DNA of 64,000 nucleotides from Marinilactibacillus piezotolerans (GTDB lineage: Bacteria > Bacillota > Bacilli > Lactobacillales > Carnobacteriaceae_A). The notes beneath the pieces were generated by a model. It saw only the letters and a program-made list of their open reading frames with translations. It searched no databases and was not told the DNA's origin. Below, piece by piece: positions 14,091 to 49,633 of this stretch. Location of the stretch: positions 496,001-560,000 of the forward strand of contig NZ_FWDP01000004.1 of NCBI RefSeq assembly GCF_900169305.1, read 5' to 3'. The position numbers and the translations under genes were made by a program. Positions within the stretch are counted from its first letter, which is position 1. Each line of letters opens with the position of its first letter.

Positions 14091-14176
14091 TTTGCTAGTT
14101 CCTCCCCGATGTTGACGATATTATTGTCTGTGTAATCAAACTTTTTGAAATTTTCTGTTTATTTAAACCTAAACTT

Positions 14177-14205
14177 ATCTTATAGTCCGAAAGCGATCTA
14201 TTCAA
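14177..14205 (-). promoter_or_regulatory. Promoter of the second alpha-glucosidase
   Basis: TTGAAT, 17-base spacer, TAAGAT, with a spacer resembling that of the malL promoter (both end in GACTA). The place where the operator should be (14218-14231) is occupied by the start of the 52-bp repeat array instead. Confidence 0.55.
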
Positions 14206-14221
14206 CAGTAATTTCGCTACT

Positions 14222-14460
14222 GAGTTCCGGCTATTCGCCTCTATTACAGGAACTCGTGTCGGATGCTCGCTCTCAGTTCCGGCTATTCACCTCTATATCC
14301 AGGACTCGCGTCGGATGCTCGCCTTGAGTTCCGGTTATCAGCCTCTATTACAGGAACTCGCTGACCATTCTGCCCTTGAGTTAAGGCTATAGAGCGTTAT
14401 AACCCGAACTCGCTTCAAGATTCCTGATCGAGTTACGGCTATTCAAAAATCTAAGCCTCT
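14222..14460. repeat. 52-bp tandem hairpin array A1 (4 units plus a partial)
   Basis: Units begin at 14222, 14274, 14326, 14378 and 14430, each exactly 52 bases apart. Every complete unit contains GAGTT (or CAGTT) followed about 30 bases later by AACTC/GACTC, so it can fold as a hairpin; the unit then continues CGnnTCGGATGCTCGC in the better copies. The fourth unit has diverged inside but keeps GAGTT/AACTC and an inner GG..TATA / TATA..CC pairing. No open reading frame explains it. It fills the gap between the amylopullulanase terminator and the promoter of the second alpha-glucosidase. Confidence 0.85.
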
Positions 14461-26752: not shown

Positions 26753-26825
26753 CTTCCTTATTTTATCATTGCTTTAGAGTGGTTCAAATTTTTAGCGCTT
26801 CTTGGGCGGATTTGGGTCGGGTAAG

Positions 26826-27189
26826 TGCTCACTCAGTTCATCGACAGCTCATGAGTGCGACATTATAGCAAGGAAACTGTTCACTCGTCGCTTTGGCACT
26901 CCACGAGTAATACATATGCTCTCAAAAATTGTTCACTCATGGAGTCAGAACTTCATGAGTGCGACATTTCACTTCCGATAATGCTCACTCGGCATCCCGG
27001 TAATTCACGAGTGAGACATTTCGTTCCTAAAACTGTTCACTCAGCATCCCGGTAATTCACGAGTGCGACATTTCGCACCATAAACTGTTCACTCAACGAG
27101 CAGGTACATTATGAGCAAGACATTCTGTTCCCTAAACTACTCACTCACGCTCCGTTACTTGTCGAGCGTACACCAAACCAAAGCACTTC
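26826..27189. repeat. 52-bp tandem hairpin array A2 (7 units)
   Basis: Units begin at 26826, 26878, 26930, 26982, 27034, 27086 and 27138, every step exactly 52. Consensus pieces are TGTTCACTCR, a variable stretch of about 14 bases, then YGAGTGCGACATTTC and a run ending AAAC. CACTCR and YGAGTG form a stem. In the first four units the last stem pair changes together (A-T, G-C, A-T, G-C). The array lies between the maltose phosphorylase terminator and pgmB. No reading frame runs through it in a credible way. Confidence 0.9.
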
Positions 27190-31634: not shown

Positions 31635-32260
31635 GTTCGGTCTATTCAGATTTTACTTAGACCGCAAGACGCCGAACTTTTCGGGGTTCGGCTTATTCGG
31701 TCGTTCTCTTTTTACCGTTGAGCTGAACTCAGTCGGGGTTCGGCTTATTTAGTGGTCCTCTTTCTACCAACGAGCCGAAGACAAGCCGGTTCGGTTTTTT
31801 CCACCACGATGTTATTCTGAACACGACGAACCCACCCAATATTCAGTGTATTCATTTAGCGTGTTCTAGTCGAATAAGCCGAACCTTTTCCCAGTTCGGC
31901 TTATTCGACAGTTCTCAAGTCCTGTACGGGCCGAAGTTGACAACGTTCAGCCTTTAGCCTATCTTATCGCTTGTCTACTTACCGAATTGAGCGATGTTCG
32001 ACAAGTAGAATGTTCTGCAGCTCCCCTTCATACCGAAGTATGCAGGTGTTCGACAGGTAGATGCACCATGACCACTCTTAGCTACCGAATAGGCGCCTGT
32101 TCGGTAGCTAGGAGGACGTGCACCGTTGTAACCTACCGAACAGGGCCAGACTTCGGTAGGTTATAACGGAAGATCTCATCGAAACGACCGAACCTTCACT
32201 GCCTCGGCTATTACGTTACCCACTGTTCCACCTAATGACCGAACCTCCATAACGACCGGC
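31635..32260. repeat. 51-52 bp tandem hairpin array A3 (two sub-arrays, about 12 units)
   Basis: Sub-array a has GTTCGG at 31635, 31686, 31738, 31789 and 31894 (one diverged unit near 31841), each answered about 37 bases on by CCGAAC or a near copy. Sub-array b has ACCGAA at 31981, 32032, 32084, 32135, 32187 and 32238, answered within about 16 bases by TTCGG/GTTCG in the first four. Steps alternate 51 and 52. Unit 32079-32110 is a 32-bp near-perfect palindrome with arms TAGCTACCGAA/TTCGGTAGCTA; 32129-32163 has arms TAACCTACCGAA/TTCGGTAGGTTA. 31871-31907 is a 14-bp inverted repeat. It fills the gap between malR's terminator and the GH13_20 promoter. Confidence 0.85.
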
Positions 32261-43211: not shown

Positions 43212-44288
43212 TTATTTTACAAATTTTTTTAGTACCAAATGTGTCGCAATACCAGCTCCAGCTATTAATAATGAAGTCATTACCGGATTCTTTGTTGCTT
43301 TTACATAAGTGCTGGATTTTCTATGCCAGCCTTCATTCGTCCCTGTTGTATTCATTCCTTCACCAGGACTGTGCAAAGCGCTTTTCCCTTTTTGATCTGC
43401 TGATTTGCCCAAATGCTGAGTTGGATAAAGGTACCATTCTTCAATAATGTCCGTCAGTCTCGGGAATATGTCCCCTAATACCTTCAGAAGCTTCGCTTGC
43501 CCACCTGTATACATATCTCTCTTTGGATGTGCTGCTGAATATAAAATGGCTTCAGCAACCACTTTCGGAGGATAAACCATAGACCGATGACCTGATTTTT
43601 TATCCATATAGCTTTCTGCATGTTCGTTGTAAGGTGTATCAATACGACCAGGATGAATCAATGTCACAGAAACAGGCATATGATTCTTTTCAAGTTCTGT
43701 TCTCAAGCTTTCTGTCCAACCATGGACCGCAAACTTCGCTGATGCATAAGTGGATTGAATAGGTGTTCCTCTATCTCCAAGCAAGCTGCCTACATTGATT
43801 AAAGCGCCAGGTTCGTTCCGCTCGTTATAATGTTTAACCGCTGCCCTAGATCCATAAACTACACTCCAATAAACCGTTTCAAACATTTTTCTCATATCTT
43901 CAGTCGAAACAGTCATTGCTTCTCCGAAAATCGATACACCGGCAATGTTTGCCCAAGTATCGAATCGGCCATATTCTCTAATTGCTGTCTCTGCGATTCG
44001 ATCAATATCTTCTTCTTTTCCAACATCTGCTGTAACATATACTGCTTCGTGACCTTTTGCCTTCAGCTCTTCTACTAGTTCTTTTAAAGCCGATTCATTT
44101 CTGGCTGCTGCGACGACTTTTGCCCCTTTTTCGGCTGCCATTCTAGCGGTTGCAAGTCCAATTCCGCTTGAAGCACCCGTAATAACAATAACTTGGTCCT
44201 CTAAATTCTTCAGTTTCAATTTCTTCATACTTGCCGGCTTCTGTCTATCCAGTTTTTCCATTTTTTCCATTTTTTCCATTTTTTCCAT
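43212..44288 (-). CDS. Short-chain dehydrogenase/reductase with membrane tail
   Basis: 358 residues if read from the first ATG. The SDR core starts near residue 30: VIVITGASSGIGLATARMAA (cofactor loop TGxxxGxG), NIAGVSIFGEA, the Ser in LINVGSLLGD and the catalytic YASAKFAVHG (Tyr-xxx-Lys). A C-terminal extension of about 100 residues ends in a hydrophobic helix (VMTSLLIAGAGIATHLVL) that may anchor it to the membrane. Substrate unknown. The gene begins with four perfect copies of a 9-bp word (ATGGAAAAA), each a potential start codon; AAGGAG lies just upstream of the first. Array A4 fills the space upstream. Confidence 0.88.
   Translation of the reverse strand: MEKMEKMEKMEKLDRQKPASMKKLKLKNLEDQVIVITGASSGIGLATARMAAEKGAKVVAAARNESALKELVEELKAKGHEAVYVTADVGKEEDIDRIAETAIREYGRFDTWANIAGVSIFGEAMTVSTEDMRKMFETVYWSVVYGSRAAVKHYNERNEPGALINVGSLLGDRGTPIQSTYASAKFAVHGWTESLRTELEKNHMPVSVTLIHPGRIDTPYNEHAESYMDKKSGHRSMVYPPKVVAEAILYSAAHPKRDMYTGGQAKLLKVLGDIFPRLTDIIEEWYLYPTQHLGKSADQKGKSALHSPGEGMNTTGTNEGWHRKSSTYVKATKNPVMTSLLIAGAGIATHLVLKKFVK
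44253..44288 (-). repeat. Four tandem copies of ATGGAAAAA at the SDR start
   Basis: 36 bases, four exact 9-bp units encoding (Met-Glu-Lys)4. Length changes by slippage would stay in frame and shift the usable ATG relative to the ribosome site. Confidence 0.9.
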
Positions 44289-44412
44289 ACTGATCTTCTC
44301 CTTTGTAAGGGATTCAATTCCATGTACGTACTCCTTATTTTAGGAAGAACAGCACATATCGCAAGAATAACGCTCATAATAAACTTGTAAAGGCAAGATA
44401 GTATAAGGATTT

Positions 44413-44932
44413 CACTGAATTGAGTGCTGATTCTGAAAGTTAAATAGTAGCATATCAAATAAAGCGCTGAATCGATTGGATATTCTGCACGTTAATTGTT
44501 TAAACTTAAATTAAGTCACTGAATAACGACCTGATTCGACATGATATTTGTTGCAAGTAGAAATAAGATGCTAAATTGAGTGAGTATTCTGCACGTTAAT
44601 TGTTTAATCGTTAAATAAGTCACTGAATAGGGACCGAATTCGGCATGATAAATGTAAAAGGTTGAAATAAGACGCTGAATTAAGTGATTATTCTAAACGT
44701 TAATTGCTTAAACATAATTTAAGTCACTGAATAACGACCTGATTCGGCATGATAAATGAAAAAGGTTGAAATAAGACACTGAATTAAGTACTCATTCAGC
44801 ACGTTAACTTTCTAAACTGAAATTAAGACACTGAATTGATAGATAACCTCACAAGTTAAGTGCTAAAGCTAAAAATATAGTGCTGAATGAAGCGCTAAGT
44901 AATAAAAATTAATTAACGATGCACTGATTCGA
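44413..44932. repeat. 52-bp tandem array A4 (10 units, 104-bp higher-order pattern)
   Basis: Units begin at 44413, 44465, 44517, 44569, 44621, 44673, 44725, 44777, 44829 and 44881, every step exactly 52. Each opens with CACTGAAT, CGCTGAAT or a near copy; most carry ATTC about ten bases on (CTGAAT/ATTCAG in the eighth). Units 3, 5 and 7 share ACGACCTGATTCGGCATGAT, while units 2, 4, 6 and 8 share ATTCTGCACGTTAATTG, so the array is a two-unit (104-bp) repeat in its middle. A/T-rich like the surrounding core genes. It fills most of the 763-base gap between the SDR gene and argR; 44289-44412 upstream holds nothing I can identify. Confidence 0.9.
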
Positions 44933-44949
44933 CTAAAAGCGATATATAT

Positions 44950-44992
44950 AAAACCGAGTAGACTTCTATGAAAGTACAAGCCTGCTCGGTTT
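44950..44992 (-). terminator. Terminator of argR
   Basis: Arms AAACCGAG/CTCGGTTT with an inner AG/CT extension and a T-run on the minus strand, about 60 bases after the argR stop. Confidence 0.65.
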
Positions 44993-45051: not shown

Positions 45052-45516
45052 TTAAGTTAAAGGAGTATTCATTCGCTTGAATAAGTAATTATACATTTTT
45101 TCCGCGCTTTCTTCATCGTGAGAAATAATCATGATTGTATCGTTTCCAGCAACGGTTCCAACGACTTCCTGAAATGAAATATCATCGAGAAGTGCCCCTA
45201 CGACGTGTGCATTTCCGGGAATCGTTTTAATGACATTCATAAACTGTACCCTTGTCAGTTTCGTTACGACTTCTTTTAGTGTAGAAGTCAGTTTATCTTC
45301 AATGGTCAGTTGATTGTTCTGATAAATCGTATATTTCGTTCCGCCATTTGAGCTCGGCGTTTTTACCAGGTTCAGTTCTTTAATATCCCTGGAAATCGTG
45401 GCCTGTGTTGCCTCCACGCCTTTATCTTTCAATTTATGGAGTAGTTCGTCCTGAGTGCTGATTTCTTCGTTCAATACCATCTGCTTGATCATCATTTGTC
45501 TCTCCGACTTTTTCAT
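45052..45516 (-). CDS. argR: Arginine repressor ArgR
   Basis: 154 residues. The N-terminal winged helix (RQMMIKQMVLNEEISTQDEL, GVEATQATISRDIKELNLVK) binds ARG boxes. The C-terminal oligomer and arginine-binding domain has NVIKTIPGNAHVVGALLDD and VAGNDTIMII with the key Asp. It controls arginine synthesis and breakdown genes. It is divergent from argS and about 5.5 kb from arcA, both plausible targets, though I see no convincing ARG box in this window. Start ATG with AGGAGC. Confidence 0.95.
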   Translation of the reverse strand: MKKSERQMMIKQMVLNEEISTQDELLHKLKDKGVEATQATISRDIKELNLVKTPSSNGGTKYTIYQNNQLTIEDKLTSTLKEVVTKLTRVQFMNVIKTIPGNAHVVGALLDDISFQEVVGTVAGNDTIMIISHDEESAEKMYNYLFKRMNTPLT

Positions 45517-49344: not shown

Positions 49345-49395
49345 CAAAAAAAACGTACCGTCTCGGTGTCAAGCACTGCGAAACGATACGTTAAT
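49345..49395 (-). terminator. Terminator in the rlmA-queG gap
   Basis: Minus-strand stem AACGTAtCGTtTCG with CGAgACGgTACGTT and eight T. It lies about 240 bases after the rlmA stop. The stretch 49396-49633 before it holds a second perfect hairpin (TTTTTATCAG/CTGATAAAAA) and no credible reading frame; it is either a long 3' tail of rlmA or a small RNA. Confidence 0.6.
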
Positions 49396-49633
49396 TAAGC
49401 TGTTGCTACTTCACATGTTTTTATCAGCTTCTGATGGGTTGACTGATAAAAACCAATGAATCAAATCAGCTTATGTTCCATATGATAACACTGGGTTATA
49501 CTGATTGCAAGGTTACTGCCAAAATAAATCTCGAAACAAAGGTAATTCTTAACAATATTGTGAACTTTTTGTAAATCGACTTTACAAACTCAATTACTAG
49601 GAATCGCTTGTTGCTTAAAAACGAAGGTTATAA

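Follow-up and report, generated by a model that had tools for sequence, protein, structure and literature searches.

Tandem 52-bp intergenic arrays with two-fold symmetry and helical phasing in Marinilactibacillus piezotolerans and related bacteria

The window considered herein is a stretch of 64 000 nt from the genome of Marinilactibacillus piezotolerans (2.29 Mb in four contigs), in which the array designated A4 (type I) occupies positions 44413–44932. Upstream of A4 lies an argR-like regulator gene (45052–45516, minus strand), an ORF for which homologues were identified in 30 of the 41 genomes searched, its own included, whilst a short-chain dehydrogenase-like gene (43212–44288, minus strand), identified by ORF calling and sequence search, is found downstream. 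Inspection of the sequence that separates A4 from the argR 3′ end reveals an inverted repeat, ACCGAGCAG...CTACTCGGT, with a T-rich tail (44952–44991, minus strand), which is the probable argR terminator; a scan with loops limited to 3–8 bases did not flag it. A4 is thus positioned between this probable terminator and the start of the dehydrogenase-like gene. Inspection of argR loci retrieved from relatives yielded neither an array nor the dehydrogenase-like gene. A 9-bp sequence, TCCATTTTT, is repeated 4.6 times at 44248–44288, the start of the dehydrogenase-like gene, and because this minus-strand ORF opens with a repeated MEK tripeptide, its true start may be further in. Elsewhere in the window, Rfam identifies a 23S-methyl RNA motif (49347–49462, minus strand), with no Rfam match inside the window arrays.

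A4 comprises nine recognisable units of 52 bp (44413–44880) and a degenerate tenth. When ten 52-mers starting at 44413 were compared by ungapped pairwise identity, no indels were apparent across the units. The initial annotation had proposed a 104-bp higher-order repeat built from two 52-bp unit types, with odd units resembling one another, and even units one another, more than their neighbours, and this organisation is confirmed. Within a core formed by units 2–8 (44465–44828), where A and B types alternate, next-but-one pairs are 71–90 % identical and adjacent pairs 52–65 %, with units 3, 5 and 7 sharing 77–90 % and units 2, 4, 6 and 8 sharing 65–81 % (65–90 % between like units overall). 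Of the 35 ways in which these units can be split, 3, 5, 7 versus 2, 4, 6, 8 separates them best (identity of 0.78 within classes and 0.59 between them), and shuffling of the unit order returns p = 0.006 for the odd/even division. At lags of 52, 104 and 208, self-matching of the array reaches 0.56, 0.69 and 0.65, respectively, against a maximum of 0.36 in 1000 shuffles, and Tandem Repeats Finder reports a period of 104 (score 463). The end units had also been described as the most diverged, and this too is borne out, with mean identities to units 3–8 of 0.56 for unit 9 and 0.45 for unit 10; as the latter is hardly recognisable as a repeat, the true end of the array is placed near 44892.

A dyad scan of A4 (z = 3.4, p = 0.015) places its first two-fold-symmetric site at 44408–44442, composed of a 13-bp half-site (44408–44420), a 9-bp loop (44421–44429) and an inverted half-site (44430–44442), followed by a variable linker of 17 bp (44443–44459). 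Both dyad and linker recur every 52 bp, with the axis falling at 44425 + 52k and inner patches of the form GAAT N9 ATTC. Column conservation is 0.85 in the arms, compared with 0.66 in the loop and linker. ArgR operators (ARG boxes) are dyads of the GAAT-N4-ATTC type and are situated near arginine genes; A4 was considered as an array of such boxes beside argR and rejected, as its spacing is N9 rather than N4 and type I arrays occur at many unrelated loci.

The window also contains arrays A1 (14176–14457), of a GAGTTCC type, and A2 (26823–27170), of type II with GAGTNCGACATTT...AAACTGTTCACTC, each with a 52-bp period. To these may be added a short and weak period-52 signal at 31645–31807, which may be a decayed array. 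The scanned sample consisted of the window and 40 further stretches of 15–20 kb, totalling 859 kb or ~37 % of the genome, and covered all lags from 12 to 259, such that the choice of lag was unbiased; it contains 19 intergenic arrays of differing sequence, nearly all with a period of exactly 52 or a multiple thereof, although some stretches were picked for pattern matches and their density is therefore no unbiased estimate. Other periods are scarce, being limited to 45, 153 (3 × 51) and some low or coding-type signals. The array sequences of this genome fall into several unrelated-looking types, and the 104-bp pattern of A4 is present in other arrays as well. Accordingly, the view that such a pattern is unusual for a bacterial spacer does not hold for A4's own genome, where at least 19 arrays have a 52-bp unit, and the constant common to these and to other species is this unit more than the 104-bp dimer. 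When the A4 type was expressed as a gapped pattern (GAAT N9 ATTC over two units), this genome yielded 52 exact matches, whereas 26 further genomes of the family yielded none; the reversed control has no match here and one in a single other genome. A reading of the arrays as protein-coding repeats was rejected, as 52 is not divisible by 3 and long open frames are missing from most arrays. A related array, L086 18056–18420, has 51-bp units, a 153-bp higher-order repeat and AACT...AGTT arms. Separately, four arrays of one type (L081 5011–5465, L104 15865–16356, L107 7072–7622 and L122 6666–6964) share their flanks, and appear as if they were inside a larger dispersed element.

For a broader view of array anatomy, 42 arrays were folded at 52 and a two-fold axis was scored against column-shuffled controls. 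The dyad exceeds these controls in most arrays, with its significance being marginal or absent in several from genome G006. The pooled conservation profile displays two blocks of ~13 bp separated by a variable loop of 8–9 bp and followed by a variable linker of 17–18 bp, and this layout of half-site, loop, inverted half-site and linker is seen in every type. Outer patches are GAGT...ACTC in most types and TAWC...GTTA in that of A4; the inner patch of this genome is GAAT/ATTC, several species of genus g3 have TTT/AAA in its place, and different triplets occur elsewhere. The alternation of conserved (34–35 bp) and variable (17–18 bp) segments is as regular as that of a CRISPR, but this identity was rejected, given that the half-sites are degenerate, the linkers are similar within an array rather than unique, and the arrays occupy dozens of loci with ordinary flanking genes.

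Spacing is markedly more constant than sequence. Across 67 arrays, 400 of 409 unit spacings are exactly 52 (the remainder being 51 in five cases, 53 in three and 49 in one), a figure inflated by the lag-52/104/156 filter used for this catalogue, in which the arrays from outside the home genome were selected in part at lag 52. The constancy does not stem from this filter, as the all-lag scan also finds 52. Over the same units, 4838 substitutions from the array consensus stand against nine length changes. The centres of the half-sites alternate at ~21–22 and ~30–31 bp, close to two and three turns of DNA, which brings every half-site onto the same face of the helix. A/T dinucleotides are phased at 10.4 bp (power z = 12.2 against column-permuted arrays in which the 52-bp repeat was kept), with a power of 4.13 in arrays as opposed to 0.44 ± 0.10 for randomly drawn stretches. 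This genome gives a strong signal and G006 a weak one. Relative to the dyad, the A/T phase stays constant (R = 0.95, n = 33), and the phasing is symmetric about this axis. Compensatory covariation of the arms was not detected, with paired cells and double changes no more frequent than in shuffles (the pooled G006 set mixes orientations, whereas single arrays do not), and pairing extends to only about 7 of the 13 positions of an arm. The lack of covariation, the mixed orientation of the arrays relative to flanking genes and the 10.4-bp phasing together favour a helix-phased site at the DNA level over a hairpin.

With regard to their distribution, a pattern capturing anatomy alone (GAGT-N26-ACTC-N18-GAGT-N26-ACTC, no mismatches) has matches in 14 of the 295 genomes examined from the order, and these belong to two families only, with counts of 163, 81, 31, 20 and on downward, and a reversed control has none anywhere. 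When 151 genomes sampled across the class were searched, the present genome alone gave a match. The pattern detects one geometry and misses the A4 type itself, such that the lack of a match does not prove absence. Within the two array-bearing families the distribution is patchy; G000, G006, G020, G025 and G083 are array-rich, and the relatives G001, G003 and G004 are array-poor or array-free. As arrays are scarce or absent in four further genomes of the window's genus, they are not essential to that genus. Carriage by plasmids or viruses was rejected: no similarity to a G006 array was found in a plasmid collection, and 2.9 million viral contigs yielded two pattern matches, judged to be compatible with chance.

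The positions of arrays are conserved between species. A region of glycosidase-type genes (window 7136–35286) is syntenic with G020 and G021, two species of another genus, at 81–94 % nucleotide identity and locally 98 %. A2 is at the same place in all three (L195 and L208 in the other genus), and A1 is present in two of the three (L196 5054–5361). Further orthologous pairs between G020 and G021 are L143/L203, L204/L201, L197/L198 and L199/L200, and G002, from the window's own genus, has an array where G021 has one. Within orthologous arrays, the arms are 78–93 % identical, whereas loop and linker match at 45–54 % in the majority of pairs and at 0.69 and 0.86 in two others; the flanks are ~72–98 % identical. 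Unit numbers differ between species (6/5/8–9, 13/7 and 8/4), and do so by whole units of 52 bp. As the segment shared with the other genus reaches 98 % identity, A1 and A2 probably arrived by horizontal transfer; A4 is outside this segment. The segment is itself a mosaic, with identity stepping from 81 % in the left flank of A2 to 98 % in the right. At a separate locus, G020 has a YeeE-like transporter and a lipoprotein gene between two arrays (L197 1612–4866), and in G021 this segment is missing and a single array is left (L198 16687–16935), which suggests an array-mediated deletion or insertion.

As the 52-bp period is found in unrelated sequences, half-sites are kept whilst loops and linkers drift, and positions are conserved across species, the arrays look selectively constrained and not the product of duplication only. 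This bears on two suggestions of the initial annotation. Growth of A4 by duplication of dimers, with turnover in its interior, fits the identity matrix, but does not suffice as a full account of an array that looks constrained; likewise, the label 'satellite-like' misses the main point of a constant period, kept half-sites and conserved positions.

As a rule, an intergenic repeat in bacteria represents one sequence family and has hairpins. In the 52-bp arrays the invariant is instead geometry, in that one exact length, one two-fold layout and one helical phase recur in unrelated sequences, in different species and in both families, at conserved positions, and such geometry is how a protein–DNA array would look to selection. 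We therefore propose, with a confidence that is evenly poised, that A4 belongs to a dispersed family of helix-phased docking arrays, acting at the DNA level for a putative two-fold-symmetric protein and copied by unequal exchange. Each 52-bp unit would represent one two-fold-symmetric site, with half-sites alternately two and three turns apart. On these, we infer, a putative sequence-specific dimeric or oligomeric protein would dock cooperatively, wrapping or bridging the DNA in spacers beside gene 3′ ends, and the resulting patch might serve to organise the nucleoid, to insulate, or to buffer topology. Unequal exchange would add or remove units in steps of 52 or 104 bp, with selection holding the half-sites and their exact spacing and leaving loops and linkers to drift. 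The inner bases of the half-sites vary from array to array and from species to species, for which the protein would need more than one binding specificity or specificities that evolve fast. No shared neighbour gene for a cognate protein was found among the flanking genes of the arrays examined, which are unrelated and of metabolic or housekeeping type. A more ambitious version, which we hold only tentatively and think somewhat less probable than its negation, is a form of 'satellite chromatin', in which dozens of positionally conserved, helix-phased 52-bp arrays per genome would be read by a fast-evolving family of putative DNA-binding proteins, and would serve to organise or insulate the chromosomes of bacteria from two related families.

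One alternative is that the arrays are strong topoisomerase (gyrase) sites at gene 3′ ends, akin to BIME-2 of Escherichia coli, with the A/T phasing as a wrapping signal and the array absorbing transcription-driven supercoils. In support of this, divergent (promoter) spacers are avoided, as divergent pairs of heuristically called ORFs flank 5 of 39 arrays, compared with 54 of the 193 gaps taken as background. Two-fold symmetry and a 10.75-bp G+C periodicity characterise the E. coli gyrase motif, gyrase wraps fragments of 35–52 bp, and BIME-2 elements are gyrase sites (PMC6379681); array A/T dinucleotides are likewise phased symmetrically about the dyad, and A/T versus G/C phasing of roughly 10.5 bp is common to both. 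However, the gyrase motif is degenerate and spans about 130 bp (PMC6379681), and it has neither a fixed 52-bp period nor specific bases such as GAGT...ACTC with species-specific inner patches. Furthermore, gyrase is universal, whereas the arrays are limited to two families and patchy within them, and we regard this explanation as unlikely.

REP/BIME elements are nonetheless the nearest known kind. These are intergenic, symmetric and tagged by a tetranucleotide (GTAG/CGTC), BIME-2 being gyrase-bound, and their TnpA-REP proteins are RAYT transposases (PMC3733652, PMC6379681). The arrays share with them many intergenic copies in convergent or unidirectional gene spacers, tandem clustering, two-fold symmetry, a possible topological role and a conserved terminal tetranucleotide (GAGT in the arrays) with variable inner bases. 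Membership fails on the hairpin, the tag and the transposase. The arms are not complementary in the manner of a REP stem and show no covariation, and the strict 52-bp period and helical phasing have no counterpart in REP elements. Rather than GTAG or CGTC at one end of a 20–40 bp palindrome, the arrays carry their outer tetramers, GAGT/ACTC or TAWC/GTTA, on either side of the dyad in inverted half-sites. PF01797, the Y1 transposase domain of the RAYT superfamily, which accompanies GTAG-type REPs, is absent from all eight genomes tested (G000, G006, G019, G042, G025, G062, G083 and G103), of which G000, G006, G025 and G083 are array-rich, and a REP/RAYT identity was accordingly rejected.

The same absence weighs against selfish repeats, in which the sites would be recognised, amplified and spread by a putative transposase or recombinase, with half-sites kept for the enzyme. 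Such a scenario would suit the patchy distribution with up to 163 matches per genome, the species-specific inner bases (as in co-evolving pairs of element and enzyme) and the two-gene segment that lies between arrays in G020 and is missing in G021. Positions conserved across species, however, indicate long residence more than recent hopping, and no conserved mobility gene is present beside the arrays examined; the probability of this scenario is thus low in our estimation.

We attach a still smaller probability to functionless minisatellites, generated neutrally by slippage or unequal crossing-over. Tandem direct repetition and variation in copy number, as in minisatellites or VNTRs, are indeed seen between orthologous arrays, and homogenisation within arrays, 104-bp higher-order repeats and diverged ends are equally in keeping with it. 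The reading is strained by a period that is exactly the same in unrelated sequences and in both families, by half-sites conserved beside strongly diverged linkers, by the scarcity of length changes relative to substitutions, and by helical phasing and conserved positions. BOX elements of Streptococcus pneumoniae and the MIRU/VNTR loci of mycobacteria are likewise intergenic tandem units (~45–100 bp) of variable copy number, but each is a single sequence family, whereas the arrays are many unrelated sequences of one architecture and one exact length. Lastly, the arrays might be transcribed into successive RNA hairpins that stabilise mRNA, provide processing sites or terminate transcription, in the manner of BOX or transcribed REP elements. 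This reading would account for inverted half-sites located mostly downstream of genes, but was rejected as very improbable, for the arms do not covary and pair only in part, hairpins require neither a fixed linker nor a total length of 52, orientation is mixed, Rfam has no match in the arrays, and a probable terminator separates A4 from argR.

No published description of such arrays was found in the open-access literature. If they are docking sites for a putative protein, as we favour, they provide many natural replicates for finding that protein and for testing effects on chromosome folding, supercoiling and gene insulation, whilst the orthologous arrays offer a clean case of bacterial satellite turnover under constraint. 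As a minor observation on their surroundings, OsmC-like genes are located near arrays in three genomes (L106 9463–9894, L157 1752–2174 and L197 5601–6032), which may be a coincidence or reflect one ancestral locus.
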